64,000 nucleotides of DNA. Origin: Psococerastis gibbosa. Lineage: Eukaryota > Arthropoda > Insecta > Psocodea > Psocidae. Within the stretch, counting starts at the first letter, position 1, and each line of letters begins with the position of its first letter. Location of the stretch: the NCBI GenBank assembly GCA_963971405.1, contig OZ020490.1, positions 20,671,464 through 20,735,463 of the forward strand, in the 5' to 3' direction. The notes below the pieces were generated by a model. That model was given only the letters and a program-made list of their open reading frames with translations. It did no database searches and was not told the DNA's origin. This document shows, piece after piece, positions 2,786 to 63,530 of the stretch. The position numbers and the translations under genes are program-made.

Positions 2786-2793
2786 AGTCTCAG

Positions 2794-2944
2794 CAGGGAC
2801 GGATCCAGCCCATTATTTGGGGAGGGGGAGTAGTTGTGGGTAAAAATAGGAAAAATACATGTAAGTTAGTACTGATTAAATCAGAGCGTAATAAATTAAC
2901 TTACAATAGATTTACTCAATTTGGGGGGGGGGCAGCTACCCATG
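2794..2944. mobile_element. Short hAT-like element with G tracts, 8-bp TSD
   Basis: A 151-bp segment is flanked by exact 8-bp direct repeats AGTCTCAG (2786-2793 and 2945-2952). It starts CAGGGACGGATCCAG and has G-rich tracts near both ends. The terminal inverted repeat is poor (the right end reads CATGGGTAG on the other strand), so assignment to the G/C-tract family rests on the TSD and composition. No coding capacity. Confidence 0.6.
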
Positions 2945-2952
2945 AGTCTCAG

Positions 2953-4150
2953 CCGAAGCCAGAGCATTATCTCGAAGTATTAAAGTGATAATATCAACAA
3001 ATGCGCTCATTGATGATTGATTAATTGAATAAAGCAGGCTGCTAATTATTCTTTGCCATCCCTTCATTGGAAATTTCACCCTTCTTGATTGGTGGGCTTT
3101 CCACCCCCCAAATCAAACTGGTCCATTATCGTACCAATCGCCAAGTTGTTGTCGGAACCCCTGCTCCAGCATAATGAATCACCCGTTCCCGCTATACAAT
3201 AGACCAGTGAACTGGGCGACATGTCCAATTAGGAGGCTACTGCCATCTTATAGGGGGCTACACAAGGACGGATACAGGGGGCAGGGGCTAGATACTATAG
3301 TATTACATGGCCTATGTTTGTTCTATTTTGACTCACATGTACCCCCCCCCCCCCCCCAAATGGGCTGGATTTGTCCCTGGGGCTACAACCATGCTAGTTA
3401 TTTATTTCTAACATTTAATTTATTTTTTCCGGCTGAAATATTGTAGCCTATATTTGGAAATGCTTAAAAACTTACTACCTACTGCATTTCGTACCTTCAT
3501 TTAGTAATTTTTACTCGCCCGAGTGGGCTTCCTTGCTCTTAGTCTGATGATGGGTTTATCATTAAAACAGCCGTCACTTTTATTGTATTTCAATTTTTTC
3601 TGGAATTGAGTGCTAAGAATATTTTTCCTCTATAATTAAATTTTTCAATGCTTCACTTCCAGGAAGTCACTAAGGAAACCTTGGCCTGGACACTTCCCTA
3701 CTCAACACCGGGGAGCCAAGGCATAATTTTTTAATAGTGGGCCATGGCTGAAAAAGTTTGGAAACTCTTTTTGTCTACATTGAACAGGCAAAGATAAACT
3801 TTGGAAAATTTCTGAGTTGGGCAGTTTGTGCCTACACTTTGTCATAATAATAATTCCAAGTTTTAATTTTAGCCTATAACTTAGGCATTTTTTTTTAAAA
3901 AGTAATTTGTACATAAAAGTGAAATTCTGTTATTTTCTTCCCTTTTACTGTCATGAAAACACTTTTAATAACTTGGTTAGTAAATTAAATAAAAAATATT
4001 AAGTATTGGATTTAGTGGTGCCAATTTCCTATGCTGCAATATTTACATTTTCCATACTAAATTGGTGTGTTTTGAAATAAAATTATTATTATGAAATACC
4101 ACGGAGTCACGAGTAATTTAATTTTTGAAGTGAAACTTCTTTATCGACGT
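2953..4150. other. Intergenic sequence with poly-C tract
   Basis: No gene is recognised. A C homopolymer at about 3342-3357 is followed by TGGGCTGGATTTGTCCCTG, which resembles an inverted end of the G/C-tract elements. Its left partner is not clear. Confidence 0.45.
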
Positions 4151-6024: not shown

Positions 6025-6457
6025 TGCAGTAGGCAGAGATGCATAACATCATGTACTTAATGGCTCTTCAATTTAAGAGAGAATCGCAAAGAAAAAAAAT
6101 AAATACCCAATACTCACATAATACTAAAAATCCAATCTACAGAATTCAACTGCAGTGTAGTGCCCATCTTAAATAAGCCAGGACAAAAATTGGCGTTCAA
6201 ATACATTTTGTCAGAGATAGAATCTAAGCCGGGCTTTTTTAACAAAAAATTTGAGAAAATTCATATTCAAAATTTCACCAACAATTAAACCAGCCGAGCT
6301 GTAGAGAGGAGTAGAACCTTAAATAAATTGATATTGCGATAAAACCACCCCCATACAGTTGCGGTGGGCTATCTAAACTACCCCGTTCTCATTAATTCCG
6401 GCAGGTGTAACTGTATGCTTCAGGATCACCCGACCGTGACTACCACTCGACCAGGCC

Positions 6458-6725
6458 CAGGCACGTAGCCAGGGAGGGGGCTTTGCCGCTTTGGGGGCTG
6501 AAGCACCCCCCCCCCCCCCGAAATATAAAAAAATTGCATTGTTCAGTTTGATGTTTCATCTGTAATTTTTTTCCTCTAAAAACACTGAAACTGTGTGTTT
6601 TAGCAAGTAAATTATTAAAAATTTCCAGGGGGGGGACCCGCAATTTTAATGGGGGTATTCAATCCCCCCCTCCCGACCCCTTGGTAGTTAGCCCCCTCCG
6701 AAATAAAATCCTGGCTACGTGCTTG
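6458..6725. mobile_element. hAT-like G/C-tract element, 7/8 TSD
   Basis: A 268-bp element begins CAGGCACGTAGCCAGG and ends with CCTGGCTACGTGCTTG, which is its near-exact reverse complement. Flanks are ACCAGGCC (6450-6457) and ACCAAGCC (6726-6733), 7 of 8 matching. A homopolymeric C tract followed by GAAAT lies inside, and a second G/C-rich block lies near the right end. No coding capacity. Confidence 0.85.
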
Positions 6726-7977
6726 ACCAAGCCGCACATCTCATGCTCCTTTTCTCTAAAGGCAACTGAAGGCTTTGAATATTGCAGTATTATAAGGTAT
6801 ATGGCCGTAGCCAGAGGGGGGGTCCAGGGGTGGGAGAAACTATGACTCTCTTATCTGGCTAAATCCTCGGGGGACTCCAGGCGTCCGTCCTTCAGCGAAT
6901 GAGCTGGGCTAAGAGAGTTAGAAGTGCCTATAACACTTCGTCCTTCATCGCGCTCCCTCGGGCAACGTAGAGGATACGCCGTTCCAATCACTTGCCTAGG
7001 CATGGCTTGTGTGTGGGGGGTTGGGGGCGTGTCTTTCTTTCTTTCTTTCTTTTCCCTGTCCAGTATCCCCTGGACAAGGAGCATATATTTACAAAATACA
7101 ATAACTTACATAATAATACCATAATATTATAATAATAAGTTACATAATAATAACATCCCGCATCCCCAAGCTAGCGCTTATTTGGGACATAAGACTCATA
7201 CAGTGCTGCTAAACAAGGCTTAATAATTTATTTTTGTTACTTATTTATAATGTTTATATATATATATTTTTTTTTTCTACGGCTAATAATAATAATAATA
7301 GGGCTCTAAAAAGCCCTGTCTGGACCGAAAGGTTTGGGCAAACTAGGGTCCTGTAAGGTTACCAGCCTCTCGACCCGAACACTATTGGTCCTATTTCTGT
7401 AACACTCGAACGCATTTTGGTTACTATCTTGACATGGTATACGAGTATAACACTGACATTAAATGAACTTTTGTTAACGAGTTAGCTTTCTCGTTATTAT
7501 TATAATTAGAGGACCTAGATCGTAGACCGTGCGTAGATCGTGGGTTCAAATCCCGCCAAGCCCAGTTTTTTCTAGATCTTATAATTTCAGGCTTTGCTTA
7601 AGCTTATTGCTACAACTAGAGTTCTGCTTAGTGTTCGCCCAGTCTCGGTCTCTGTCCCGAATCGAAACTTGTTTTCGGGAACGAGATCAAAACAAAAGTC
7701 TCGGCTCCGAGGCCGAGATCAGGCAATTTGTTTTAGACCAAACTAAGACCGAGACCGCCAAGTCTTGTCTCGGCCTCAATTTCGCATTAAGGAGAACACT
7801 AGTTCAGCTAGGGGCGGTCCAGAAAATCGTAGCCTAGCATAGTGCTGTGAATACGTATACGTTTGTATGTTTATAGGTAGCCTACTATCTATAGGTTCAT
7901 CTTTAAAGCATTCTATACCTCTAACAGACTCACGGGGACCGAGAGTGCGCGGAAAGTTAACATTTCCCATTTGTAAT
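6726..7977. other. Spacer with microsatellite and tRNA-like T arm
   Basis: A partial G/C-tract element end (GGCCGTAGCCAGAGGGG) lies near 6804. A TTTC microsatellite occupies about 7029-7053. At 7538-7554, GTGGG-TTCAAAT-CCCGC forms a perfect tRNA T-arm stem-loop followed by a T run, but no acceptor or D arm can be paired, so it is a tRNA-like relic at most. Confidence 0.5.
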
Positions 7978-23270: not shown

Positions 23271-23372
23271 GAAGTATTACAAAGGGAATGTGGAAGATAT
23301 AACTGAAATACTTTATTAAATTAACGAATTTGGTTTTTAATGCGACTTAACACCTTCTTCGGACCCTCAAAC

Positions 23373-23448
23373 CAGGGCCGTGCCCAGGGGGTGATCCAAG
23401 GGGTCCGGACCCCCCCCCCCCCGAAATCAAAACCTGGGCACGGTCTTG
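23373..23448. mobile_element. Minimal hAT-like G/C-tract element, exact 8-bp TSD
   Basis: Only 76 bp. It starts CAGGGCCGTGCCCAGG and ends CCTGGGCACGGTCTTG, with a GGTCCGGACC palindrome and a C homopolymer between. It is flanked by exact CCTCAAAC duplications (23365-23372, 23449-23456). It is the shortest member found, so the termini alone appear to be enough for mobility. Confidence 0.9.
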
Positions 23449-23456
23449 CCTCAAAC

Positions 23457-26060: not shown

Positions 26061-26264
26061 GCGAGAAAATGTAAATTTACTGCGAACTCTTGCATTTTTT
26101 TTCATACCTTTGCGGCTGCACAACGATGAAAAGATTATTTCGTTAAAAAGTCTATCAGTTTTAATCAAATATTTTGCATCCTCTGCCTTAACAACATAAT
26201 GTCTCTAGTCGTGGTGCTTACTGATTAATCCGAGCTCAAAGCAATTTACATTTTAGTCACTACA

Positions 26265-27007: not shown

Positions 27008-30000
27008 TCAATCATTATTTTTTATGAGATCTGCAGCTTTTTCCACTATCATCAGAAGAGCAGCTTGTGGATTGCCACTCATCAAGTTCGGTATTACCGA
27101 AGCGTCCACAACACGCAGCTTATGGAAACCATACACCCTGAAATAGAAAGAAAAAAAAATAGTACCTGGTACTTACTTAGCGTGACGTGGACACGCTTAT
27201 TGACTAAGTGACTAACACAAATTCGCCACAGTTTTAGAACTCCTTCGAACTAACATCCTCAGTGACCGTTATTTTTATACAAATCAAGTTCAATAACAGT
27301 GACCGATGGGTTTAATGGCAGCTAATGACACATAGTGTACATCAAAGGGACGAGGAATATTTTCTCTAGTTTATGAAACCTCATTTATTTAGATTGAGAG
27401 TTAAACACTCAGAAACCATCCCGTGGATGTAGACCGTTATTAATATGGCTGCTAGTATAGCCTGCACAAGATATGTACGCAATTTCACTAGGAAAATAGC
27501 CTGCACAAGCTAAGACTTTAGTATAGGGTTCTGACCAGGGCTAGGTATCCGTTCTGCTATGTTGCAATGTGTAAGACTTCGATATTTTTTACAATGGTAC
27601 TTATCTCTGATAATTGGCTTATGGTTAACGGGTGCCCCGCAAGGGATATTATGGCTCCCGCCGTTCCAGTTAATATATTTCTATGGCAGAAACATACTGC
27701 GGCTGTTGAACTGTTCATTTGTTTTTTATTCGTCTCTAGTCAATTGTTTTCATGTTGGAATCCTACAATGAGGAAACACTTCCTTTGCTGTTTAACCCAT
27801 CGCGGGGTTGCCGGATTTCCCCCTACGTTTCACCCCTATCGGCAATACTTAGCTTATGGTTTGGCGCCATTTATTCTACTTTATTATCGTTGGACTGTAC
27901 AAGCACAACATACTTGAGAAGGTGATCCACCACAGATAAATCTTGCCTGTGTCCCATTCTGCAGGTACCGACAGGATGGTAGCTAGTTAAGGTGAGCTGC
28001 CGCACGTAACAAGCCCAATATTTTCGATCTCCAAACGCCAACCCCTCACAACCAGGAAAGGTTTCTTCATTTAGAGAGAACCCCATCTTCCGCATTTCTT
28101 TAGACGAGACCAGCTTTTGGACAAACTGGAGGCCATCAACAAGAGTTTCTACATCATCATTATGAGCGAGGTAGTTGGGGTTCACTAACGGCGGTCCAGC
28201 AGGATTTTTTGGGTTTAACCGGACCTCTCCACTGCTTTTTGGGTGAAGCAACACTGGCATGATTGAAGCTGTTGGTATATCGAATAACGGTTCGAAGTAG
28301 TCTTGCCATACCTGGAAAACAAATAAATGTGTCAAGGGATAAGGTACCAGTGAATGGAAAAGGCGTTTCAAATTTACAACCAATGCAGGAAAAACCAAGC
28401 CCACATTATTAGGTCTACAAAATACAAACTAACTTGTAGAGCGGTAGAGAGGCACGTGGGTAAAAAAACCATCGAAGGACAAAAATGTGTTCTAATATTT
28501 ATCCCCACATTTCATTCGGGTTGTTATTATGTAGGGTTTTTATGAACGTAGGGAAATTGCAGCAATTGATTTTTTAATTCGATTGATTGATTGATTGATG
28601 CACACGAAACTTGTCGCTTAAGGCGGCTATGCCACCGACCTCGTTTTTCATAATGCAAGTGCATGACGTGGTAGCAGACTCAAGTCTCTACCATATTATA
28701 ACTTAATCTATGATAGATAAGTTAAGTATCTGCATTATAGTCTCCTTAAAATATGGCAGAGACTTATTAATGATGTCTGCTACCACGCACTTGCATTATG
28801 AAAAACGAGGTCGGTGGAATAGCCGCCAAACGCCAATTGCAAAACACAGTCATTGCCAATATCCTAGGACTCATAGTCTGGCCTGCTACAGTTATATTTC
28901 CTCGAAATAGTGACACAGATGGGGAGTTTCAATGTGTCAGTAACATGCTAAAGTGGTGCAGTTCTATTATAGTTCAAGATTACAATTTATTATTAATAAT
29001 ATAATTTCAGAATATTAATTACGGAAATTTCGAATCAGGTTCCATCCCTGCTGGCGTGCCGATGGGGAAACCGTGCACCTGGGACCAGCCAGCCAGAAAA
29101 ATCTGCTGAAGTAGACTCGGGTTTTGCGCCAGCCCGATTGCTGCCATGGCAAATTTCTCAACAAATCACTTGCGTTCGAATCGTCCGCGTGTAACGGTAA
29201 ATAAAAAGTTGTGAAAGGGAACTTACATCATCTCTAATTCCTAAATGATTTTTAGACAGCAGACCTCCATCCGAAGACGCTCCGGCCATCATTACCAAGA
29301 AGGCCAGTTCGGGCAGATGGGTATCATTCGTCTGGAGTATTCCCACCGCCTCGCATAGTGTTGATGTGAACGGACCCTTCCCGTGTAGGAAGTAATTGTA
29401 GAGGGCAGTGGGTGACGTCAGATCCCGCATTCCAAATAGATGCCGTCGGGAGATTATCAAGTCGAGACCGGTTGTGACGTGGTCTTGCAGGTTTTTACCC
29501 ACTGGTAAGTCATACAGTACTTCAATCTGGTTAATAATAATTATAAAAATCACCCAGTAAGCATGTGAAATGTGGTTATCATTAACTTGACACCATTAAG
29601 AACTCACGAACATGTCAAGTTAAGAGGCAACCTGGAGCACGAAGACGAATTCATTATTGTATTAAATGGATTGTAGTAATAATGTCCTGAAGGATTTATA
29701 TGGACCTATGATTGCTTATAGTGGCCCATGGCCGTGACCAGGGGGTGGTCCATGGGCGCCCCCCCCCCCCCCGAAATAAACTTTTGTATGCAAAGAATTT
29801 ATCCATTAATTCGTTAATAAATTACATTTAAAAAAATCAAAACCTGGGCACGGCCTTGTAGTGACCCATAGGTCCCTTGTCCAATGCCAACAATTCGGAC
29901 ATTATTTGTATTGTTTCCGTTTGAATTTTTGGCCATTGGCAAGCTGGTATACGTCCTCGATGTCAACATGCACCGGTAACAAGCGATAATGGAAAACCTG

Positions 30001-33000: not shown

Positions 33001-36000
33001 TGGGGCATAATAACGCGCTGAGACGAGACTATACCAGTCAGTCTACGTGCGTGTCAAGTCCTGGTCACCTCCGAATTAATCGGGTGACTTTACCATGTTC
33101 CCCAAGTGGTTCGGAATCCAATATAATCAGGAGGTCCACCCTGTCAGTCAACTCCCCTTCCCCCGAGGTGAAAAAGTCTGCCCTTAGGGTGCCTCAAGTT
33201 AACAAACAGACTCAATCCCCCCGCCAGGCTAACAGGGTTGCTTAAAGCAGAAATGATGAAAGCAGGCATTGGAAACAACAACAACAACAACATATCTTAT
33301 GTATTATATGTTTCTGTGTTTTTGTTTAACTAATCGAGTTTTATCTGTAACGACGCCGAGAATACCACTGTATTTTAAAAATGGCCAATACACATGACTT
33401 ATGTATTGTAAGATTTCGACAGTAAGAACGGCCCAAATACTGAATCGACGTCTAATGCAGAACGCTTGGATCTGTGGCACAAACACCATCGCCTAGTGAC
33501 TTTCGAAAAAGTCAGATATCGAAATGTAGAGGAGCATTTCTAGTCATTGAACGGATATTTTTGACGGCTCTACTATCGATATATTTTTAGTAAAAAAATA
33601 CGTAGTGGGGGCACTCCGATTCGCTCTGCAGTACTTTTAAAATGTTTGTAATAACTTTCCGTCATATCTGAAATCAAGCGCATGAAGTCCGCGATTCCTG
33701 CGCTTGCGACCTATGTGGACACCCCCGGATGGACGCTGAACACCTCGCGTCGTGCCCGGCGATCGACCACACGCTGACAAATGAAGACGAGTTCGAAAAG
33801 AACGCACGTCGCTACTGGTTAGCGCGTCACCAAATGGCCGACATGCCAAGGGTGGGCGTTGGCTAGTAAGCAGGGTTGCCAAACGTCCTGTAATTCAAGG
33901 GACAGTCCCGTATTTGAAGGGTTTGTCCCGTGTCCCTTGCGCTTCTCGTAAGGGACGGAAAATGTCCCGTATTTAAAGACTTAGGTTAAAATTACTGCTC
34001 ATTAGTGACGATGGCACAGTTGAAGCCTGTGAATATAATGACATTGCAGCAGTATTTAATTTCATAAGCAACGTGTCTAATATATTAAATTTATGAAGTC
34101 TCAAGCCAAACGTTGCAAAACAATAACACCATTATGAAGTCTCAAGCCAAACGTTGCAAAACAATAACACCATTTCACCAGAATTATATGAAATAATGGT
34201 TCAGGTTATAAAAAATTAGAGAGCCGATAGCCGATTGGAAGTCAGTTACTTTATTGGACCCTGAAGAAAAGTGTATATGCAACGGGGCGTCCCGTAAATA
34301 CGAAAAATTTATTTTGCAACCCTGCTAGTAAGTAAGTAGTAAGTATATCTAAAATCAAGCCTATTAACATTAGGCTACTAACTCTTTTCTTTAATCCAAA
34401 ACATGCATGTTCCTGCGGTTCCGTCAGATATTCCCAATCGTAAGCTGATCTTTGTAGAAACGTGCCGAGAACTGGAATGTCTAAAAAGTATGGCAACGGC
34501 GTGCCAGCTTCAAGGAGAAGTACAGATACACTTTCTTGTTCGGAAAGCCTTGCAGCTAAAAGGGCACCCGCTGTACCACCACCAACTGCAAATATGAAAC
34601 AAATAAATAAATGAATTTAGTCATTTATAGAGATAGCTGACCATCTAATTTCAAATTTTATATAGGCTAGGATTTATTCCAACCGTCCCATGCTTGTGTG
34701 TGTGAGTGAGTGAGTGTTTTAGTCTTGGGGAATTTTTTTATCGACTTTAAATTGTATTGCAAATTTTTAGTTTTTGTTGCTGACCCCTAGTTGAGTGTAA
34801 GAGGGCCTTATGGCCCTAACTCTGCTAGGGTGGTCTCAGCTATAATAAAGTCATATTTATTTATTTATTTTCAAGCTCCTATCGGTTTCCACAACCAACC
34901 CTAGATGGGTGGAATTCGGCATTTTTGTGTAGCTGTACATACGAGTTAAGGGATGGCCCTTCAGCATTTGACTTAACCCAGTGCTTGGCGCAAAAGTTTT
35001 GAACTTTTTAAATTTTTAACATTTGCTTACAGAATATGATATAGTATATCCTTTTAATTGTGTATGACGTTCGGATACGACAGAGAAAAAAAAACCTTGG
35101 TCGTATCATCAGTTAACACTTAACAAGGCATCGTATATACATATGTTCTTGCTGAGTTTTTTCAATCCTATCAATAGGTACGCTGGTAAGTCCACCCTTT
35201 GAAAGTTTAAAGTTTTCTAGAAGAATACATATTACACGTTTTCCATGTCATTACCATTGAACTCAATCATGGTGTTCAGAGTTACATTGCATTTGGTAAC
35301 TTTAAGCTATATGAAATACATTGAAATACAGTTTACGAGAGCTGCATTCTTTGACCAAAAGTTGAGGCTAGGTTACAAATGTATCAAATAAAGAGATTAA
35401 GAAATGAATATGTCATCCTGATTCAGGTTCAAGGCCAAAAAAAAATCCTGATAAATCATATTAATGAAGGGGTTATCGGAACTAGTTAATCTCTGAATCA
35501 GACTATTAACGTTCAAGGCCATGCATTGGTCCTAACTGCGAATATTTTACGCTGTATTGTAAGATTTAGATTTCCTACTCAGAACTACTGACATCAAGTG
35601 AAACATCGACCTATCTAAGAATATTGATTATCGTAAATATCGTGGCATATTTGCCGTTACCGGCACAATTTGGGTTGTTATTACGGCAATATGTAGTATT
35701 ACTACTATTGGAGTACTATAGTAGTTTAGCAAGTTAGCGTAGTTACCAGAGATATTTGATTTCGGTAATAGATCAATTTAGGAAATCATTAAATCTAGGC
35801 TTTTTTCTAAATGTCGTTGTTTTAGTTTCGTTTTTAGTTATAACGAAGGCAGGAGGCACTAAGCACCTCAGATTAACCCATACTTACTTATTATATAGTC
35901 AAATGTCTGACTTTGCAACTCCCCGGCAAATCCTAGTATGAATTGAAAGAATACCGAAGAAACTTCCAAATAAGCGTAAAATAATAGGACTGCATAAAAA

Positions 36001-36559: not shown

Positions 36560-39500
36560 ATGAATTACAAACCAAATATGACGGAGAGCCGTTCCCAGGA
36601 ACATTCTAATTCCGAATTTATTGTTGATGAGAGCCAGCTGCTAAAAGCCGCGGCGTCGGCAAATGTATTTGAAACAATTACAACGAATGCTATTAGTGAA
36701 GAAAGTAAAAAACGAAGCATTGATCATGCTCACGGAAAAGAATGTTTCAAACCTGTAACTAATGTGCCAAAGGAAAATGTTAAAAACATTGCTAATTGGC
36801 CGCTGTTAACAGATCCCTTTACTTCTAGTACTTCAGCAAAGGGGCTTGAAATAAAAAGGTTCAAGATTGATACTGTTAAACAGCTTTCGCCTCAACTTGA
36901 GATGATTGCACCGGCAAGTGTCAAATCAATGGAACAACTATGTTTGAAGAAACATGTGAGCCACATAAGAAAGAACGCGAACAAAAGCCAATTTGACTGC
37001 ATTTTAAAAGATCTGAACCCCCAGGCAAGGGTGGCAGTTTTAAAGGACAGAAATTCACCTCAGGAAGGTTTAAATAAAAACACTTTTCATTCAACCTGCT
37101 CTCTGGGCAGCCATAAACCGAATATAGAAGAAAATCCGAATTCAATGTTAGGCATGCAATCCAAGAAAAGTCTCGGACGAAATACAGAAGTTATTGAGAC
37201 AAAATCTTTATCAGTTTTTAAAGAAACGTCGGAAAAAGCAAAGAAGCGGCTAGTCCAATTAAAACTTTTCAAAACCAGTGAACAATCTCCTTTTACTGAG
37301 CTAAGCAATCAAGTTGTTCAAGAATTGGAACGTCAGTTACACTACTCAAGGCCGATGGAAATTGATATTATTTTACAAAGCGCTGGAGATCAGTTATTCT
37401 CAGTGCCAGCATGTCGTTCCAAAACTAGCTATGTAGCGCTTTACTTCCGTATTCAGTGGTCATCTGAAGATTCTGAATACTATCGTACCGAATTTAAGAC
37501 AGAGCTTTGGAGCAAAGGAAGGCAAAATTTGAAAGCATTGTTGCAGTCAATGTTCACTCTAAAACATGCTGTAGTTTGCATTGAAGCAGCAGAACTGATC
37601 GTTTTCTTAATTAGAAAACTACAATTCAATAAAAGTGAATCTCATAAATGGAATATCATGGACCCTTTAGTAGCGTATTGGATGATACATTCAGATGAAC
37701 CGTGTGCATCATTTGAACATTTGGTAGAAAAACTGCAGTTAGATAGATCGGATATGAAGAATAATTTCTATGGTTCCAAAACATGCAAATTTCTAGATCT
37801 GCTATCCAAAGGGTTTGGCATTTTAAAGCAAATGTTAAAAAAAGAACATGTTTGGACTTTGTTTTTGGAAATGGAAGTAAAATTGACGCCTCTTCTTGGT
37901 AGTAAGTTGTGTTTCTAAAAGTATATTAGCCTATTCAATCATATTCCAATTAATGAAATATCTTGGGGTGAAATCTCTCGCCCCACAACCGCGGCAAAAA
38001 CAAGTATAATAGTTAGTCTATTGAATATTCCCCGAGTTTAAATAGAAATAGTGAACAATGCTTTTTTAATGTTGCCTACATTTTTTTTTAGGGATGACAC
38101 ATCGAGGTATCCATATTCAAGACTCTGAACTCCGCTCCATTGGAGAATTAATTGCAGAAAAACTGATAAGTTTGGAGAGAGAAGGGCATAAAGCAGCCGG
38201 CCGTCCATTTAGCATTAATTCACCGCAGCAGCTTCGCAAGATTCTATATGATGATTTGAAATTACAGGAGCAATTTAATATAAAGGTACGAGCATAGCAC
38301 TTCGAATTTGTGAATTCGTTTAAACCAATAATGTGAAAACACTATCCGTATGTACACAGTAGGTATGCAGGCATCCCTTCTGTAATATTTTTACTATTGA
38401 TAAATGTTTACAATTTTCGTCTTGTTTACCTTATGGTGAGGTGTTTCTATTTATTACTCTGAGAATTTCACAATTGTAGGCCTACTACAGTATTTACAGT
38501 CTACATAGTACTGTACTGCGTAATCTCATGTTTAAAAAATATACTTTAGTGAAAGTGCAACTCTACACAAGACCGTAGCCAAGGGGTGGTTCATGGGGGT
38601 TCAACCCCCCCCCCCCCCGAAATTAAATGGCTTGATACTAGATTGAATCGGATTTTGGGAGGAAAAATAAAAATTACTATGTAATATCCAATAAAATTTC
38701 TGAAATATAAAAATAATGCCAATGTAACTAAATTTTTATAGCCTTCTCTTTTTAAAGCATTATTTTAAGAGGATATAATACGTAGGAAAAATTTCGGACA
38801 GACCACAGATGAAAATATGAAGAAAAAAAAACGAAATATTTTTCTTCACTATTTAAGTTTCTAGTTTAAATTAAATGTATATTATTTAAAAATAATAGAG
38901 GCAATATAAAAATATTTAACAAAAACATTAATAATGTTCTGCTAATAAATAGTTAATTCTAGTGACACTATCTGGCAAAACAAAGATGACCCTGAGCCAA
39001 CGGCTCACGGCTGTAAAGTGTAAACTGTAAAGGTAGGGGAGGCATCACCCCCTGCTGCTTCGCTGAATGGTCTTTATACCTGCGACCCGCAGGCTGCTAG
39101 ACCCAGCCCAAGGAAGTAGGAACTCGGAAGATTTTATTCGAATCTCAGGATTGATTTTTGCTCCAGCAGTGGCGGGTGCACTGTTTCATACTACCAGTGG
39201 CGACTAAGTCATAATAACCAACTTTCTAAAATTTGTTGTTGCCTATTTTCGATAGACGTACTCAGCTAGATTGCTATACATTGGCGTAGTTAGGGGGGCA
39301 TAGCGACCCCCAGGTACTTGTCAAGCCCCCCCCCCAGGATGTTTGAGTAAATATAACAATTTAAAAACTTAATAAATAAATAAACGAATAATTGAAAATC
39401 CGAAAAAAAAATTATCAGAGCATATCAATAATGTTTAAAAAATCACTGTAGCGCAAATATTCGACCATTTTAATGCATTGTGTTGGCTATTTTCCATTCG

Positions 39501-45500: not shown

Positions 45501-48500
45501 TAATTTAGCAGAAATATATAGGCCCTATTTATCATTTTTTTTTATATTTATTATTATTATTGTATTTATTTTAATTTATCATTTATTTAAAAAATACTTG
45601 CAATTTTAAAAAAAAAATCGAGTGGTTTAACAACCACGTAGGATAGGGCGTTGGATAAAGTATTTTAAAATATCAACAAAATGATGTCCCACTTAAAGTT
45701 TTTTTAGTTTTATATATTGTACGGTATGGACATTGTAATTAGTCTACATATTTAGAACCCTCATCGCTATCTGAATACCACTTTGGGGGGTTGCATGCTG
45801 AAATGCTTTATACTTTTATACCGTACTCTAACTTACCATGCACCATTATTAATTTTTCATCTGCAATATGGTAAAGAACACTTGACCTATAAAGCCTGCT
45901 GTTAAATATGTTTTGGCCCTTATGGTTCTTTCCTATTTTATTTTATTTGTACAATACCGTTTTACACCAATTACATTGTACAAAAAATTCCAATTGAACA
46001 GTTAAGTATAGTCTAATATAAATCGTGAAAAAGTAAAAAGAATAATAATATATATTTGCCTGATTCAGTTAAAACTGGACTCTAATTATTATTAAAATGT
46101 AGGCTATACAATAATGAATAAAGTCAACGCTCGATGTTGGCTGATTATTCTATAATCAATGACTACCTATATTATATTATTCTATAATCAATGACTATGA
46201 CTATAGCCCACCCACACTACATATTATTTTATTGATGTTGACCTTTTGAAATGCTTTTTGCCAGATGACGTATTTATGAGCCTTGCGGAACATTGGTTAG
46301 GAAAAGACGGTCATACCATCTGTGCAAGTGACAGAGAAAAAACTAAAAGAATTGTCTACTCGCTCATGTATGGTGCAGGCGCAGGAAAAATTGCTGATCA
46401 GCTCAATGTCTCCATATTTGAAGCTTCCGTCATTTTAAACAGCTTTTACGGTAAGTTTAAAGGCTGAATTAGTTCATTCTTCTCACAATATCTCAAAACT
46501 CAAAACAGCAATAACTTAATGGGAAAAATTTTGTTTCCAGATATTCAGTTTGCGTGCGTTTTTAAATTAAAGAAAGCAGAACATGGAGCTATGAACTCTG
46601 TAGGCTAAACACTGCTGTGTCACGAACAGACTTCTCTTACTCGAAATATATTGAGTGATTGCATAACTCGCAATTTGCAGGATTCGTTTGTACACCATAC
46701 TCAGAGAATGAGTACTTTTCAGGTTTTGTGCTCTTACAGTAAAATGTTGCTTTGGTGCTCAAGCACCCCCACATTCAAGAGAAGGAGGTTAATCACTCCT
46801 TTAAATATTTTACTGGCCAATCTACTAATCACTAGAGCTATAGGTTCCAAAATCAGTCAGCCCTGTCATAAAATAGCCTATAGATGCAGTGAGAGTATGA
46901 ATATTGGATGTGACTTCTAACGTTTATTGTTTCAGCTAAATTTCCCAAGCTGCAACACCTAAACAAGAAAGTGTCAGAACAATGTTCCAAACAGGGCTAC
47001 GTGAGGACTGTACAGGGGAGAATACGTAAACTTCCACACATCTGTGATATGGAACAATCTGTCAGAGCCCAAGCTGAAAGACAGGCCGTTAATTTTGTAA
47101 TTCAAGGTTGTTACTAAAATAGGCCTAAGTAACTAAATGGACATTTAGCTTGCCCATTATAGTATTATTGATAACAGGCACGTATGCAGAGGGGGTTTTG
47201 GTGATTCAACTCCCCCCCCCCTCCCTGAAATATTTTTGACTTACACTAGATACAATCTGTAGTTGAGACGACGGCGTCAGGCCTCGCCTTTTGGTAGCCC
47301 TCACCTTCTATTTCGCGGCTATTCCATCTGTCAATAATCCGTCATTTGTGCATCAAAAATTGATGAGATGTTTGTTTTAAGGAGACTATTGTGTAGATAC
47401 TTAACTTCTCTATTATAAATTAAGTTATAATATGGTAGAGACTTATTATTGATGCACAAATTACGGGTTATTGACAGATGGAATAGCCGCCTTAACAATG
47501 CGCTGGGGGAAACCCCCTTGCCCCCGACTTGCAGTTTTATGAAGATATATCCATAAGTTAATCATGGGCGCCATAATTGGGGATGGACAACCCAATCACA
47601 ATAGGAAAGTTGTATATTATAAGCTGGAAAATGTTTTCATTTATAGGAGCTGCCGCCGACCTATGCAAACAAGCTATGCTGCTGACGGAGAACCAGTTCG
47701 TCAATGCCTACCCACCAATCGAGGCACATCTGCTTCTTCAAATCCACGATGAGCTAGTGTGGGAAGTGGCTGAGAGCGATGTAAAAAGGGCACAAGGTAA
47801 GAGTAGCCACCTCTACAGCCGGGAGAGGACAGAGCCTATTAGCAGGTTGCAGGACCAGGGGAAGTTGCCGCCATTCACGTATATGGATGTGCTCCAGGAC
47901 TTGGACAAAGAGGTGCTGACGGAGGTGGTCCGCTTCCTGGAGAGTATCGGACAAAACTGGTAGGACGTTGGGCAAGCTGTTTTAGACGGTCCCTGGGCAA
48001 CCTCGTTGCCCAGTGAGCTCCCGATAGCAGTCTTTTGCCAGATGGATTTGGTAATGGCTGTATACCCTTAAGCCAAAAAAAAGTGTAGTTAAAAGATAAC
48101 AGGAATGACACTCTCACCAAGGACTTATTTATGGGAGGATCCCCAATTAGAAATTACTTGGTGCTTGATCCTACTAAACAAACTAGAAATATGAACAACA
48201 TGAAATGTAAGCAACAAAAAACGAAAGATGACTAAAACTGTAAAATAACTTTTAAAGCCTCGGGCCTTAGGCTAGCTTATCCCATACCTGCCACACTCTA
48301 TTAGAGTCTAGCCTTCGACCCCCCCCCCCCCCTTTTCTGCACGCCAAATTTTAAAGGAAAGGAAAAACAGCTACCATTGAGAAATTAGTTTAAAAAAGAA
48401 GGACCTAGGCTCAATGGGGGATCCACGGGGGGGGGGGGGGGGGGGGGGTCAGGGTGGCCAACCACTAAATGAGTAAATTCATAAGATACCTAGTAAATTA

Positions 48501-48828
48501 ACCATTTTAAAAATAAAAATTAAAAAATTGAATAAAACTCAACTCAACTCAACAAGCTTGTGACCCCCCACCCTAAATTTTCCGCTGGATCCGCCCTTGC
48601 CTATGCTTTGGAATTCCTTGCCAGAAGATACTAAGACTGAGGGTGATATTTTGATGGATATAAAATTTATATTTCCTTTTTATTGTTGCAGAAATTGCAA
48701 AGAGAGTGATGGAAGACGCCGAAGCTTTGAATGGATACATAGATACGTTCAAGGTACCTATTCGAGTCAAATTTCATATTCTGAATAGCCTTTATACGGG
48801 AACTTCCAACTCACAAAATGAGGATTAG
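36560..48828 (+). CDS. POLN: Family-A DNA polymerase, pol nu (POLN) type
   Basis: Nine coding exons: 36560-37901, 38092-38285, 44146-44302, 44598-44711, 44916-45062, 46265-46450, 46936-47106, 47647-47796 and 48692-48828. All phases match, giving 865 aa; human POLN is about 900. After a ~240-residue Ser/Lys-rich leader comes an inactive exonuclease-like domain (about 265-445), then the polymerase. Motif A is [11 protein letters not shown] (Asp626), motif [16 protein letters not shown] (Arg675, Lys679, Tyr687) and motif [13 protein letters not shown] (Asp805). The residue after the motif B Lys is basic (Arg680), as in human pol nu (TKK) and unlike pol theta (AKQ). No helicase precedes it, which also argues against POLQ. 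It is a nuclear translesion or repair polymerase by homology. Motif A has Gln-His where Ser-Gln is usual. The start ATG at 36560 is the first in frame; GTAAGT at 37902 was chosen over a donor 3 nt upstream. Confidence 0.93.
38568..38705. mobile_element. Truncated hAT-like G/C-tract element in POLN intron 2
   Basis: Begins CAAGACCGTAGCCAAGG with a C homopolymer and the GAAATTAAATGGCTTGATAC block shared with 54575-54753 and 59559-59701. The right terminal repeat is missing, so the copy is dead. Confidence 0.7.
39947..41331 (+). pseudogene. Degenerate non-LTR reverse transcriptase (RTE-like)
   Basis: Fragments in order: [31 protein letters not shown], an in-frame stop at 40214, [15 protein letters not shown] (RT motif with catalytic Asp), a stop near 40407, then after a frameshift [17 protein letters not shown], where the usual FADD is IVDD. 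The tail follows: [16 protein letters not shown], then [15 protein letters not shown]. Wording resembles RTE-type LINEs; the clade call is tentative. The reading frame is broken at least three times, so no active enzyme. It sits in POLN intron 2 in the gene's own direction. Confidence 0.85.
41439..41463. repeat. Poly-G tract
   Basis: An uninterrupted run of about 25 G, the longest in the window. Exact length is likely uncertain in any assembly. It adjoins no recognisable inverted terminus. Confidence 0.85.
41490..42040 (-). repeat. Dispersed repeat of the TCTGTCTGTC family (copy 3)
   Basis: The reverse complement matches 8700-9290: ATACGTAGTATAAGG, GCTTTGTGACGGTCAAC, TTCCGGGCAAACTATTCC and CTTGCCCCTTGGTAGTTTGC. 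The opposite end (CAATACATTGCGTGCC on the minus strand) extends the family's right end. It lies between the two reverse-transcriptase remnants of POLN intron 2. Confidence 0.78.
42090..43010 (+). pseudogene. Degenerate Jockey/CR1-like LINE reverse transcriptase, 3' half
   Basis: Fragments in order: [32 protein letters not shown] (catalytic ADD degraded to ADM), after a frameshift [19 protein letters not shown], then [16 protein letters not shown] and [14 protein letters not shown]. This is the C-terminal half of a non-LTR RT with several frameshifts and stops. Different lineage from 39947-41331. Dead copy in POLN intron 2. Confidence 0.82.
43011..44145. other. 3' part of POLN intron 2, nothing recognised
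   Basis: AT-rich intron sequence without further recognisable elements before the exon 3 acceptor at 44145. With the LINEs upstream, the intron reaches about 5.9 kb, far longer than the other POLN introns. Confidence 0.5.
45098..45384 (-). mobile_element. tRNA-derived SINE with internal insertion, in POLN intron 5
   Basis: Minus-strand head (GACATGTTGAGTAGTG), B box GGTTCGAGTCC, core, and tail TTTA-type near 45098. The GTTGGCTTAG and GCCCTAA segments are separated by ~60 extra bases starting with a poly-T run (45157-45169) and containing CAACAGTTGTTCAGTGCC, a small secondary insertion or local expansion. Confidence 0.85.
45386..46264. other. Remainder of POLN intron 5
   Basis: AT-rich, including a TTATTATTATTG-type stretch near 45545 and a tandem-like repeat of TATTCTATAATCAATGACTA (46146-46200). 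No gene. Confidence 0.45.
47315..47491. mobile_element. MITE with GCGGCTATTCCA ends, in POLN intron 7
   Basis: GCGGCTATTCCATCTGTCAA at the left pairs with TTGACAGATGGAATAGCCGC at the right. TTTGTGCATCA and TGATGCACAAA continue the arms. The loop (AAGGAGACTATTGTGTAG, TTAAGTTATAATATGG) matches 28622-28827 on the opposite strand. Non-coding. Confidence 0.87.
48412..48599. mobile_element. hAT-like G/C-tract element in the last POLN intron, 7/8 TSD
   Basis: Starts CAATGGGGGATCCACGGG with a long G run and ends GCTGGATCCGCCCTTG. Flanks are CCTAGGCT (48404-48411) and CCTATGCT (48600-48607). Interior words AAATGAGTAAATTCATAAGA recur at 57510-57540, so this is a separate subfamily. It ends 92 bp before the final coding exon. 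Confidence 0.82.
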
Positions 48829-50479
48829 GGAAAATTTTCGTTAGGTTCTTTATTGTGCCATAATATCTACAACAGGCTTCCATTATAATCTCTCCAGTTA
48901 TAATTATACGTTCTACAGCCTGATGTTTTGGTCATTTCACATTTTCAAATTTCACTTTAGAATTCACCTCAAATTATACAGGTATTTTTAGCCTCCTTCT
49001 ATTCTTTTTGGCTCATAATATAAACCTAGTTTGATTTCAATTCAATTTATGTCAGACGGCACCATATATCGACCTATCGTACAATGAAGGCATGCTCATA
49101 CAAGTTAGGTACGGAATTCACACCTGCCTATAAAGGTAGTACCTATCTTCATTATAATTACGATTTACTGCTCAACCCTCCGGCTTCTGGTCTACATGAG
49201 ATCAACTTTTTTACCAAGCTGAGGTGTTTTAATACAGGTCCGTCATTTTTCTTGTGCTTCTGTCAATATAGCCGTACCCAATACTTATTATTATACAGGG
49301 GTTCACTGAGTGAAGTGGGTAATATTGTGTCAGGCGCAGGTTTTGATTTCGGGGGGGGGGGGGGGGCGGTCCAAAAAAAATTTTACGTAATTTATTAATG
49401 AATTAATGGATAAATTCTTTAAACCATACAGGTTTACATACAAAAATTTATTTCGGGGGGGGGGGGGGGTCCGGACCCCATGGACCACCCCCTGGGCGCG
49501 GCCATGGTGTGAGGTGTCAGGATTTTAGAATGGAAGGTTCAGGTTCATTAACCTACTTCTGAGAATGTAAATGGTTGTCCCTTGTCCTAAAGTTTTGCAA
49601 TTTATTTAATAGCTAAGCCTAAATGTCATTAGAAGTGAGAGGTTGTTTATTACAACATTTTATACCTGCGGACTGCGGTGTTCATTTGATGGTAAAAACT
49701 TGAATTCTATGGCTTAGTAGCTAAATAGGGAAGACCGAATTTCAGAGTAATTTGGTTGCATAATCCAAGTATTTCCAGAAAATTAGGAATACATGGAAGG
49801 CTCATACACACAATTTCAAAATGCCTGGGCTGGTTAAATCAAAATTACTGAGAGAACGTAGAAAAATAACTATGGTACTATTTTCTTCCTAAAATTTAAA
49901 TTTTCTTTGCTGCTGAAATAGACCTATTTATAGGGTGTTCAGACCTACCGGACACACCAAGACACCATTTGTCTGGATTGGATGAGGCATTTCGAAATGC
50001 GGTCAAAAATTTGGTTAAAAAAATTGGTCAAATTTAATAAATAATAAAAGAGGGGTTTTAGGGGGTGTATAGGTGGTAAAAATGTATAATGTAATTTTCA
50101 AATGTAAAGATACTGTATGTCATTGTTACACATCTAACGCATCAAATGAAAGATCAATAATTTAAGACCTTTGGTCTTGTGTACTAGGTATAAATATGAA
50201 CTAAATATTCCTTAGGGTTCAGGCAGAAGGATTTTACTGCCGATCTGCTACATACATACAGTATATAAGCTTAAATTAATAAATAATAAAATAATGACTT
50301 TTGTCTGTTATGTACTTAGCCTGGAGTTAGGGTAACCTGAATGAAAAGAAGGCAAGCAAGACTAGAGGAAACTAGCGGACAATTACAACACTAAGTTGCC
50401 TCCCGACATACTTAAGTTATAGTGGCACTGCTTTCCGTCGCAAAAAAGGTTGTGGATAAGAATTTCAAGGACCTCCCAT
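48829..50479. other. POLN 3' flank and intergenic sequence
   Basis: 49330-49505 holds two long G tracts separated by an AT-rich stretch and ends CCCCCTGGGCGCGGCCATG, a probable inverted copy of the 29727-type element without a clear left terminus. A stretch near 50275-50335 resembles a SINE 3' end on the minus strand. Otherwise nothing is recognised. Confidence 0.45.
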
Positions 50480-50842: not shown

Positions 50843-52932
50843 GAAGTTAGTACCGGACAAGCCTGTACATAATAATCGGATCCCCGTTTGGCGTGACTAT
50901 ACCGTGATAAAAAACGACCAGCCGGCTGCATTGTTTAATCAAACATGACCTTAAGGCAAATCACGTTATAACCGGGCTCATACATTTTAGGAAGCCGCGT
51001 GTTGATTTTAGAGCCGGTCTGTGTATTTAATGCGTGGAAATTGCTGTCTACAAGCTATAGGCGTTGGCAGGGGTAATTATATTAAGCAAAAATAACAAAT
51101 TTATATGTAAATTGACGGCGATGTGTGTTTTTGGATATTTATATTTGTTGGCAGGTGGAAGTGTTGATTATGTTAGCCGGTGGGCACTGCGTTCGATAAG
51201 GTCTGACAAAGCAATTAATCCAGGCACGAAAGGCCTAAGTTATCGTTACTAGGCTACAACTTGATAAAACCTGATAGGCGTAAAGGGTTACTGTAAGCCA
51301 GACGCAGTTTAGAAGTCCGAAGCTGCTGCAGCAAAACGCCGTGGCCGTGTGGCAACCAATTGAAGACTTGCAGCAGAGGATCCTATTGGCCACTGTTTTT
51401 TTTTTTTTTTTAGATGTGGTCAGAAACATGCCCGGCTGGGGTGTTTTTCCCCTGACAGTGAAGGTAGGGATGTCCCACGACTGGCGGAAAATATTTCTTT
51501 TATGTCGACTCTTTACCAACTGAACTGGCGTGTGAACCGGCGTCATCGTACCTTTTTGAATCATATACTATATCATACATAATTATATACTACATATATA
51601 TCATACATATTATATTATATATACTATATAGTGATTGAGAGAGAGCCAGTGTATAAAAAACTTTGAGTGAAAGTCCATCTGAATGCCATTAATGGCAACA
51701 TTGTGTTGTGTAGTTGTTATAGAGATAAAGTAAAATATTATAGAGTGCACGTCGAGCGTGATTGCCGCAGTACCTACTTGTTTAAACCGAAATTTAAATA
51801 ATTTGGATAAGGGGGGAGGCAGACTTAGCTTCCTATACTATAAAAATACGTCCCTGCCTCACACCCTTATACAATTAGCCCTCAAACGAAATAAAAACGC
51901 ACCAACACTGCACTGTAGGTATCTCTTAAAAGTCTTCAAGGCATGTTTTTTATATTTGATGCACAGTTCAGCCTATTCTGCGACGACCTCAAGACCGTAG
52001 ACGGATAGGCCTAATGAGAATACTATGCTAATCAGGTGGTATTAAATGGTACTGGTTTGGAACACAAGAGGCGCAAAAACTATGGGCCTAACGTGAAAGA
52101 TGATACGGAACATTAGGAGGGGAATGCGTGGTCTGGTGCAAAAAAGAAACAGTAAGAATTATGACGATAGTGATCATCAAAAGTTATATTTCAGAAGACG
52201 AAGAAAATATTTTACGAATGGAGACGTATAACGAATCAAATGGGACAAAGCAAGATCATTCTTATAGTGAGACAGGTTTCAAGCAGAGGAAGCTAAAAAA
52301 AAGCAACAGCAACAATTGAACACTGATCCCATAAGTCAGCCCAGCATGACATTAGACACTATATGGTTGTCATTGGTTAGGGAAAAAGTGAAGTTCAAGT
52401 AGAAGTTTCAAACTAATAAACCCTGGCGAGGGCCGTGGTCGAGTAGTTAGAGAGCTTGCATTTCAATCGGGATCGGATTTACTTAATTATTCAAAGTAGA
52501 ATACAAGAGCGATGATATAATCGACCAAAAACCATCAGTCCTTATCAGGACTAAGCCTGATAATGGGAGTAGCACCCACTCCCGAAACGTCGCCCCCTTC
52601 CCCTGACAATGGGCTCCGTCCTAATCGTTCGATGACTATGAGGCCCATGCCTCTAATGACTATTAACAGAACCGGCAATGTAAGTCCAACTAACCCTTTG
52701 TTAAATAGTATTACACCATTGCCATTAACCTTTAGATATACGTTAGGTATAACGAAGTAGCGTTTCATCATGATTAAATAAGAGAAAATATAAAAAAAAT
52801 GCATGCATTCGAGTGAAAAAACCTTACAGTTGTAAAATACAAAATTTCACAGGAAATACAAATCTCGAAGAGACATACCGTAACTGAGAAGTCACAGTAA
52901 AGTAAGGGTTGATGGGTTGACCCTATAACTCC
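50843..52932. other. Intergenic sequence, no recognised gene
   Basis: Features seen are a TATA/CATA-rich stretch at 51560-51635 and a tRNA-5'-like stretch near 52435-52470 (GCCGTGGTCGAGTAGTTAGA) without a partner T arm. The open frames here are short and show no family motif. Confidence 0.4.
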
Positions 52933-53072
52933 CAGGGGCGGGCACAAGGGGGGGTCATGACCCCCCCCCCCCCAAAAAATTTTTATTGGTAATTTTATTA
53001 TGTTCTGGTTCTGGCAGCCCTGGTGATGACCCCCCCCCCCCCCAAAAAAAAATATCGCTGTGCCCGCCCCTG
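52933..53072. mobile_element. hAT-like G/C-tract element, 7/8 TSD
   Basis: 140 bp with a perfect 14-bp inverted repeat, CAGGGGCGGGCACA and TGTGCCCGCCCCTG, and two C homopolymers. Flanks are ATAACTCC (52925-52932) and ATAACACC (53073-53080). Its terminal repeat differs from the CAAGGCCGTAGCC subfamily, but length, TSD and C tracts agree. Confidence 0.85.
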
Positions 53073-53080
53073 ATAACACC

Positions 53081-54566: not shown

Positions 54567-54574
54567 TAAGACGA

Positions 54575-54753
54575 CAAGGCCGTAGTCAAGGGGGGGGGGG
54601 GTTCATGGGGTCCCCACCCCCCGAAATGAAATGGCTTGATACTAGATAGAATCGGATTTATTTGAGAGGAAAAATAAAAACCACTATGCAATATCCCATG
54701 AAACTTCTAACCCCCCCCCCCCCCCCGAAAAAAAAATCCTGGCTACGGCCTTG
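54575..54753. mobile_element. hAT-like G/C-tract element, exact 8-bp TSD
   Basis: 179 bp starting CAAGGCCGTAGTCAAGG, ending CCTGGCTACGGCCTTG, with a G run near the left end and a C run near the right. Exact TAAGACGA duplications flank it (54567-54574, 54754-54761). The interior block GAAATGAAATGGCTTGATAC is shared with 38568 and 59559. Confidence 0.93.
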
Positions 54754-54761
54754 TAAGACGA

Positions 54762-59245: not shown

Positions 59246-59558
59246 TTAGATAGGGCAAGGGTTCTCAAGAATAATTTTCGGTGGCTCCCTAAAAAACACT
59301 TCAACGTTGCATTGGCTCCCATAGACTCGTATGTGGGAGCAAGGGGGGGGGGGGTGTTTAATGCATATATTTATATAAGAAGGTGATTTATGGAATGAAG
59401 AAAACAGCAAATTTATAACTTGAAGTTTGAGCCATGGCTCACCATTGAGAACCTCTGACATAGGGTCGATCTCCATTGCCTCGCATATTGTAACGCTAAT
59501 GCAGCTCACTGCTTTGCGGTTTGCTATTTTGGACAATAAAAAATTGAGCACCACCGGG

Positions 59559-59701
59559 CAAGGCCGTAGCCAAGGGGGGGTTCAACCCCCCCCCCCCCCC
59601 CGAAATGAAATGGCTTGATGCTAGATAGAATCGGATTTTTAAGAGGAAAAATAAATTTCTAAACCCCCCCTCCCCGAAAAAAAATCCTGGCTACGGCCTT
59701 G
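59559..59701. mobile_element. hAT-like G/C-tract element, exact 8-bp TSD
   Basis: 143 bp starting CAAGGCCGTAGCCAAGG and ending CCTGGCTACGGCCTTG. Exact CCACCGGG duplications flank it (59551-59558, 59702-59709). Internal C runs are followed by GAAATGAAATGGCTTGATGC. It is closely related to 54575-54753. Confidence 0.93.
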
Positions 59702-59709
59702 CCACCGGG

Positions 59710-61584: not shown

Positions 61585-63530
61585 TGGCCCTATTTCTTGG
61601 GGTGCATAGCGACGTAGAAAAAAAGAAAATTATTATTAAAGAATAGGGAAAATACAAAATAAATACAAAATACTTAATTTCAAACACAGACTAATAATTA
61701 CCCACTATATTTATTTTACACATGGACCTCATTCATTTGCCCGCCCGCTAGAGTGTGTACTCTGTAATGGTTTATTAAATTTAATTACTAATCGAAATTA
61801 TATTTTGCTGTGCCACTACTCAAAGATCACTCGAGAAGCGGAAGACTTGAGCGTGATAATTTCATTCCGTATTAAATGTTTTTCAATGTATTGCACCTTG
61901 TCCGGGGTTAATGGACAAGGAAAAAAGAGAAAAATGAAGTGATGTGAAGGGAATATACAAAATTTATCAAATCCTGTATCTTCTGCATAATATCGAACAC
62001 ACAGGACCAACACGGCATTACCACAGAATGTACCATTCTTATACAATAATACTTGTAATACCATACGTACTATCAACACTACATTAGGCTACGTTTATGC
62101 AAACATTATGGTCGATGAAGCAGATTTGAAACAAAATGCTACCTACTTGACAGTTGTAACAATAAAATATAAAACATGCTGGAAAAGGTGGCTTATAGGT
62201 TAACAATAATAATAATACAATATGTTTTAGCATGAAATTTTTTTAAACTAATATACGTAAATATATAAATAAATGTTGGTGTTTCAACTGTCAAAACGCC
62301 GCGCCGGCTCACATGGGGTGACCTTAAATGACGTCACATTTTGCAGTCACGTGACCCAATTTTTAATCATCAAACTTAAATGTATACTGTATAGGGAAAA
62401 AAAGTCCCCTCTAAATAACGTTTTCTTGATAAAACAAACTTAAGGGGTATAAAATAAATATACTAATCCATTAAAATAGGACTTTAAAAATTGTCAAGTA
62501 GACCATTTCAACTCTATGCTGTTGCCATTTCATTTCGGGGGGGGGGTTGAAGCCCATGAACCCCCCCCCCCCCTTGGCTACGGTCTTGGAGCTGTCTGCA
62601 AGTTCTATTCAAGCATCGGCATCCTAGTATATACAAATATACAATATTTACATATATAGACCTTAGAGGCTTTAATTTGATACAGGATGTACACGTTTTG
62701 GATACCATCCCAGCACCATCAGGTGTCAGTTCTCAGATAAGCAGGTATGGAAAACCTCCTAAATTATCACTAGGTGTAGATGTTACAGGCACATAAAGGT
62801 GTGGGCAAACCTTTTAACATTGAACGATACTTTAAGATCTCTCTCCCACACAAACACGATATCTCAATAAATGATTTGCCTCAGTGCCTAATCGGTCGGA
62901 CATAATATTTCATTTCAACACAGCTATTTAGCAACTAGTAATAATTGTTTTATAGTACTAGTCGAGGTAATGAAGGCGTGTACGTAACCTCGACAATTCA
63001 AGCCCAAATTGGAACGAAAACAACTTGTACGTCGCAATAAAAAAAATGTAGCCTACAATAACAGGGGCGGGGCTTAAAATATGCCTCTAATACTTGGCGC
63101 TTGTGTCTAACAAGACTTAGTAAAATTTTATGAAAACCGAGTAACCGACTTGGTTTGCAAGTGACAATGGTATTTAGTCTACTTACAGGGTTTCTACAAA
63201 TAGATAACCTCATACGCAAAAGGAGCTTCAAAATTAGAGAAACGGACAAAGGGTCAAAAGAAATAAAAAATAAAATATAACTATAGGTTTATCGTACCTA
63301 GGTAGATCTATCAGTAAGTGACCAAGAGAGGCTTCAAAAAACAATTTAAACAGAGATTATCTACATACGTAATCATAATCTACTACATATAGACTACCAA
63401 TAAATCATAGCAGAAGACATTTCCATGAGAAACAAAGAATGAGTTTTGGTGTTGGGTGAGCTTTGAGTGGTCTGGAACCCCAGAAATGGACCAACCCATA
63501 CACCAGAAAATATTGTTACGGATACTTAAC
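61585..63530. other. Intergenic sequence with one truncated G/C-tract element
   Basis: 62526-62590 has G and C runs and ends CTTGGCTACGGTCTTG, a right terminus of the CAAGGCCGTAGCC subfamily without its left end. A CRE-like TGACGTCA at 62339-62346 followed by TCACGTGACC (62348-62357) may hint at a promoter of a gene outside the window. No exon is seen. Confidence 0.4.

Follow-up and report, generated by a model that had tools for sequence, protein, structure and literature searches.

The window, a stretch of 64,000 nucleotides of Psococerastis gibbosa DNA, contains short elements which carry long G or C homopolymers close to their ends and are flanked by 8-bp direct repeats. The question is what kind of element they are, and whether the homopolymers belong to them. 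The focal element is 179 bp long (54575-54753) and occupies 54567..54761 (+) together with its target site duplication (TSD) TAAGACGA on both sides. Its terminal inverted repeats (TIRs) are CAAGGCCGTAGTCAAGG and CCTGGCTACGGCCTTG, and it carries G12 at +16, C6 at +43 and C16, the last base of which is the 28th from the right end. The same family includes the element at 59559-59701 (143 bp; 59551..59709 (+); TSD CCACCGGG), with G7 at +16, C16 at +28 and C7, which stops at base 32 counted from the right. A further copy of this type is represented by its left end and body at 38568..38701 (+), where a right end was not found, and an inverted terminal piece with G10 and C13 lies at 62524..62588 (-).

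A CAAGGCCGTGCCCAGG subfamily is represented by 29727-29858 (29719..29866 (+); TSD TAGTGGCC/TAGTGACC), for which empty-site paralogues exist, and by 23373-23448 (76 bp; 23365..23456 (+); TSD CCTCAAAC). Both have G5 at +15; the former has C14 at +33 and a right end without nearby tract, the latter a C13 which stops at base 27 counted from the right. An inverted decayed copy of this subfamily, with G15 near its end, is found at 49387..49514 (-). The element 6458-6725 (268 bp; 6450..6733 (+); TIR CARGCACGTAGCCAGG; TSD ACCAGGCC/ACCAAGCC) contains C14 at +49. The element 48412-48599 (48404..48607 (+); TSD CCTAGGCT/CCTATGCT) has a TIR of CAAGGGCGGATCCAG type, G22 at +16 and C6 with its last base at position 31 from the right end, and 52933-53072 (52925..53080 (+); TIR CAGGGGCGGGCACA; TSD ATAACTCC/ATAACACC) has G7 at +16, C13 at +29 and C14 with its last base at position 30 from the right end. 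Two elements were found by searching around long G/C runs: 2794-2944 (2786..2952 (+)), with left end CAGGGACGGATCCAG, exact TSD AGTCTCAG and G10 which stops at base 13 counted from the right, and 3263-3379 (117 bp; 3255..3387 (+)), with TIR CARGGACRRATMCAG, exact TSD GGGCTACA, G5 at +15 and C16 with its last base at position 23 from the right end. The latter is absent from the list of the initial annotation. A hAT-like element at 33871-34324 (33863..34332 (.)) has CAGGGTTGCC end(s) and an exact TSD CTAGTAAG; it contains no G/C tract and does not belong to the tract design.

CA..TG terminal inverted repeats are present across the elements and their copies, and a G run of at least 5 bases begins at +15 or +16 in seven of nine window elements. 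The flanks of ten window elements are identical at 76 of 80 positions at length 8, a value which is partly circular because the elements were selected by that criterion. All eight elements of 76-268 bp given by the initial annotation were located, and their 8-bp flanks are as it described, identical at 8/8 positions for 2794, 23373, 54575 and 59559 and at 7/8 for 6458, 29727, 48412 and 52933. It had also described G/C runs of 10-20 bases in every member; each has at least one run of at least 10, but the G22 of 48412 exceeds this range. Terminal inverted repeats, claimed for most members, occur in most of those listed, though they are weak in 2794, at its right terminus.

A scan of the window which used no homopolymer criterion (CA..TG ends, terminal repeats matching at 12 or more of 16 positions, 60-1500 bp spacing) gave 345 end pairs, nine of them with flanks identical at 7 or more of 8 positions. 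The same scan of three Markov-shuffled windows gave 0/200, 0/190 and 0/209 pairs with matching flanks. The nine pairs correspond to seven of the listed elements, to 33871-34324 and to 20141-20384; the element 2794 was missed because its ends match at only 8/16 positions. The window contains 32 G/C runs of at least 9 bases, compared with about 0.24 expected under a first-order Markov model, and 11 of the 32 fall in the nine tract-bearing elements, which make up 1394 bp or 2.2% of the window.

Several candidates were rejected as members of the tract design. The pair at 20141-20384 is AT-flanked with TTAATTAA flanks, and its relatives in L051 and L055 were dropped for the same TTAATTAA flanks. 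Window 20141-20384, L051:8777-9181 and L055:8908-9153 form a short inverted-repeat family with CAAAGCAAGTCATTAAA-like ends, and since these always lie beside TTAATTAA-like sequence, its duplication or target seems unlike that of hAT. L059:5868-6502 was dropped with TATATATA flanks, and so was 22289-22728, a long inverted repeat with flanks matching at 6/8; the foldback inverted repeat of window 22279-22738 shows inverted similarity running past the scanned ends. The window also contains tandem segments at 110-1258 and 25941-26069, with spacings of 241 and 258 bp and a further diverged copy 25 kb away, and a possible mariner/Tc-like transposase relic at 60908-61444 (HTH_Tnp_Tc3_2 match under the curated cut-off). 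Coding pieces of forkhead, family-A DNA polymerase and reverse-transcriptase type are present, and some frames were read by eye as GMC oxidoreductases.

The genome (409 Mb, 68 contigs) was searched with the 195-base 54575 element including its duplications. There were 1737 first-look candidates, of which the best 40 were scored, and the scored matches mostly span query base 8-9 to 187-189, which is the element minus its duplications. Excluding the window itself, 39 of the 1737 candidates were analysed as copies; because these are the best-scoring ones, they are biased to similar copies. They are 169-191 bp long, and mean divergence from the consensus outside the tracts is 3.5% (39 copies and two window copies). 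Copy ends were placed by the terminal repeat alone and flank identity was then taken at lengths 4-12. Length 8 gives 88% (274/312 positions), against 0.22-0.28 for the other lengths (4-7 and 9-12). The 8-bp duplication is exact in 23 of the 39 copies and matches at 7 or more of 8 positions in 29, and target-site preference, assessed on 29 duplications, is weak.

For the empty-site test, flanks of 58 insertions were joined and matched against the window and the fetched DNA; L077 was left out of the counts as its left flank is shorter than 200 bp. The joined flanks of some insertions match uninterrupted sites elsewhere. Four of five matches for 29727 are ungapped over a single 8-bp target, and ungapped matches were also obtained for L021 (17/17, two of which, in L004 and L011, are one place), L029 (12/12), L041 (1/1) and L068 (7/7). 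The single match for L069 (1/1) has a gap just beside the target. The comparison is not clean for L013 (0/1) and L075 (0/3). L075 is embedded in a repeated stretch, where its joined flanks have matches of 92-98% at three places nearby.

Transposase genes were sought with the hAT dimerisation domain, for which the best 150 of 913 candidate places were scored, and ten places were fetched, eight from this search and two found by searching with the protein of L075. The L075 element measures 2054 bp, has duplications matching at 7/8 and bears the terminus CAAGGCCGTAGCCAAGG, the same terminus as that of the 54575 element. Its tracts are G12 at +16, C12 at +43 and C16, the last base of which is the 26th from the right end, and it encloses an N-terminally incomplete frame of 426 aa with PF05699 at 44.8 bits. 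Among 98 scored matches to L075, the sole relative above 90% identity is a 150-aa piece at 93%, around which no full element was found in L076; several more distant frames are among the scored matches, for example 765 and 780 aa at 33%. An intact transposase bearing the CAAGGCCGTAGCC terminus was not found at any of the ten fetched places. L075 and the MITE at L051:6884-7350 have their ends in common, along with a 3' stretch of about 170 bp.

Two other hAT types have tracts at nearly equal spacing. L077 (3167 bp, exact duplication GTACATAC, 8/8) has 49% protein identity to L075 and encodes DUF4371 and PF05699 in two frames parted by one stop. L071 (3093 bp, exact duplication CGCTTGAC, 8/8) has an 850-aa frame with 30% protein identity to L075 and a sequence match to Hermes (E 1.7e-07), and L073, related to L071 but shorter, has an exact duplication of its own. 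L071, L073, L075 and L077 agree in layout: the G run is at +15/16, the first C run at +35 to +43, and the last base of the second C run is base 26-28 counted from the right. This three-tract layout is absent in L068 (836 aa), with only a G6 near the left end, and L069 (826 aa) and L074 have just a single G12, some 52 bp from the right end. L074 has flanks matching at 6/8, and PF05699 was the only domain found in it. The BED-type L070 is without G/C tracts. L072 was rejected as an element, being a hAT-type relic whose terminus was not found. A protein-motif scan of the sequences gathered gave no match.

DUF4371 and hATC were found in L071, L068, L069 and L077, while L075 shows only PF05699 because the DUF4371 part of its gene is missing. 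The MITEs probably belong to the DUF4371-bearing, Tip100-like hAT transposons. Recent amplification is suggested for two families of DUF4371-type hATs, exemplified by L068 (C14:3621200-3625900) and L069 (C1:3688000-3692700). In the hAT-domain search 61 scored places share 44.9 bits, and at 59 of these the frame has 836 aa; among the matches of the L075 protein search, frames of 826 aa score alike by the dozen.

Duplications of 8 bp are not unique to hAT and are left by P elements also, so another superfamily of this kind might have made the elements. A frame encoding the hAT dimerisation domain is enclosed by the same terminus and tracts, and similar ends flank genes with DUF4371 and hAT domains; by this evidence such an origin is largely refuted, and we give it almost no weight. 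The elements are hAT MITEs, as their duplications, empty sites, copy number and transposase relative establish. The hAT assignment in the initial annotation is thus supported by the consistent 8-bp duplication in genome copies, by the transposase with the same terminus and by the empty sites. It had suggested looking for a hAT transposase gene with this terminus and for empty sites; the gene exists (L075), though decayed, and empty sites were found for several insertions.

Within the copies the tracts keep their places. The left G run begins at +16 in 35 of the 39 copies. In 38 the last base of the right C run is base 25-30 from the end, and C(n)(G)AAA stands at both C-run places in 33. Over all elements, up to three tracts lie just inside the termini: a G tract at +15/16, a C tract at about +28 to +49, with (G)AAA usually behind it, and a further C tract with its last base at about base 23-33, counted from the right. 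Length varies: the left tract has 5-15 bases, the middle 2-16 and the right 5-24 (tract lengths as assembled, in which homopolymer length errors are possible). All three tracts reach at least 9 bases in 21 of the 39 copies, and no copy (0/39) is without all three. Among the 23 copies with exact duplication, the tract is below 9 bases at the left in seven, at the middle in seven and at the right in two. Tract length shows no correlation with divergence (p 0.37 to 0.74). The position across copies and in some diverged relatives shows that G-rich stretches at fixed places belong to the element design. The initial annotation took the tracts as part of the element, and their fixed positions in the 39 copies and in some transposase-bearing relatives support this; exact tract length is not a fixed property, because single tracts are short in many copies with exact duplication.

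In this genome long G/C runs are also common where no element can be recognised. In a random sample of 200 kb (L048-L067), G/C runs number 60 at length 6, 10 at length 7, 0 at length 8 and 2 at length 9, and there are 67 of at least 10 bases, compared with about 1 extrapolated from the decay of lengths 4 to 6. A/T runs of 8-9 bases fit their own decay (78 vs 74), and those of at least 10 bases are in threefold excess (42 vs 13 extrapolated). G/C run lengths are thus two-state, with almost none of 8-9 and many of 10-16 bases, inside and outside recognisable elements, unlike A/T runs. Of 1291 end pairs in the random sample, 10 have flanks matching at 7 or more of 8 positions; seven were judged hAT-like, five of them with a G/C run of at least 9 bases and two, in L060 and L065, without.

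A hAT-end motif was sought within 60 bp of the 101 long G/C runs in the window and random sample (264 kb combined). It is oriented inward at 34 and outward at 3, and at 500 random positions it is inward at 17 and outward at 8. Since the motif was written after seeing the window, the count was split: 11 of the 32 window runs have it inward and 2 outward, and 23 of the 69 random-sample runs inward and 1 outward. Controls from the random sample gave 2/71 inward and 1/71 outward for A/T runs of at least 9 bases, 9/70 and 2/70 for G/C runs of 6-7 bases, and 28 inward and 27 outward for 1000 random positions. A repeated flank accompanies 62 of the 101 long runs in the 264 kb, but it is also present at 197 of 500 random positions and therefore this test separates little. 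Neither hAT motif nor repeated flank is present at 33 of the 101, which is an upper bound in the sense that the list takes in runs inside known elements (window 3342 and 6506).

Homopolymer lengths are prone to sequencing error, and the gap at 8-9 bases could in principle be technical, so the homopolymers might be sequencing or assembly artefacts. Against this, the runs lie at the same element position in 39 separately located copies, short states at the same position are also resolved (e.g., G7 in L020, L026, L036 and L039), and orientation to the element end is kept, with 23 inward to 1 outward among the 69 runs of the random sample. We regard an artefact as highly improbable.

A less easily dismissed explanation accepts the elements as hAT MITEs and gives the tracts no role: they would be inherited short G-rich stretches which were lengthened by slippage, as seems to happen to G/C runs genome-wide. 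The two-state G/C runs across random sequence, beside A/T runs of 8-9 bases that stay on their decay, are consistent with it, and so are the loss of any one long tract in copies with exact duplication and the missing correlation of tract length with divergence. Tract spacing is nearly equal, however, in transposase-bearing elements whose proteins are 30-49% identical, and the interiors of these elements are almost free of runs. In seven transposase-bearing elements, G/C runs of at least 6 bases number 15 within 100 bp of the ends (1400 bp) and 2 in 18,329 interior bp, a count which excludes the BED-type L070, includes L073 without domain scan, and takes in L074 and L075, which show PF05699 only. 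Tracts without role are a possibility to be taken seriously, but a somewhat doubtful one.

The joint reading we prefer is that these are hAT MITEs with transposase supplied in trans, with kept G-rich subterminal sites and with tract length driven by slippage, and we put its probability at about 0.85. A hAT transposase acting in trans would excise the elements at their inverted termini of about 16 bp, and insertion at an 8-bp staggered target would leave 8-bp duplications. The G-rich subterminal motif would be a putative recognition or end-pairing site of the transposase group. Reading it so, G-richness and position would be kept while length drifts; the run-length spectrum suggests replication slippage as the cause of this drift. 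G/C runs beyond about 8 bases would grow to a broad state of 10-16 bases in this genome, and the homopolymers are conspicuous in the copies because runs above about 8 bases appear to expand to this state. So the tracts may be read by the transposase, and two-state slippage may set their length.

A bolder version is that a Tip100-like hAT group uses long subterminal G/C tracts as an essential end signal, perhaps a G-quadruplex, a hairpin or a G-tract binding site, and by spreading its ends seeded the genome with a great many hypermutable two-state poly-G/C tracts (below 8, above 10). We put this forward tentatively and consider it rather unlikely. Homopolymers are usually thought neutral; G/C tracts at fixed places in diverged transposons would indicate an unusual DNA signal read by transposase, and these elements could explain part of the poly-G/C excess of the genome. 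Short and long natural variants exist at one position, which makes both ideas testable.

Subterminal motifs are needed in other hAT elements. This is so for Ac, and reportedly for Tol2 and Kat1. G-rich, non-autonomous hAT-N families of invertebrates have G-rich stretches after CAGGGGCGG-type ends and may be in repeat libraries. No account of hAT elements with conserved G/C tracts was found among the matches listed in searches of the open-access literature. Viral contigs scanned with the terminus and with the C-run/CGAAAT motif gave 0 matches each.

A letter search of the open-access literature with the termini gave, among the matches listed, the Tip100 paper as the sole relevant one. Tip100 of morning glory (hAT Tip group) has, according to the available part of that paper, an 11-bp TIR CAGGGGCGGAG, 8-bp duplications and an 808-aa transposase, which is about the length of the 826-850 aa frames here (PMC12511174). 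Its TIR is close to the CAGGGGCGGGC, CAGGGGCGTAT and CAAGGGCGGAT ends and to the CAGGGGCGG-type ends found here, and less close to CAAGGCCGTAG; homopolymer tracts are unmentioned in that part of the paper (PMC12511174), and the comparison of sequence covers the TIR. The BuT2 element and its MITEs in Drosophila, also of the hAT Tip group, combine DUF4371 and hATC with 8-bp duplications and short derivatives with shared ends, and the part of the study available gives 24 MITE copies in D. willistoni and leaves tracts unmentioned (PMC3942097). In contrast, one family here has 1737 first-look candidates and conserved G/C tracts. The Ac-mMITE of pineapple is, in the available part of its description, a Mutator-like MITE family associated with simple repeats which inserts into (TA)n (PMC8449440), whereas the simple repeats here sit inside the element. 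Long poly-G/poly-C runs are over-represented in Caenorhabditis, with 396 tracts of at least 18 bases in 100 Mb, and those of C. elegans need active maintenance, by the available part of the report (PMC2211496). The letters 'transpos' are absent from the text on these tracts (PMC2211496), whereas a hAT-end motif lies directly outside about a third of the long runs here (34/101; 23/69 in the random sample).
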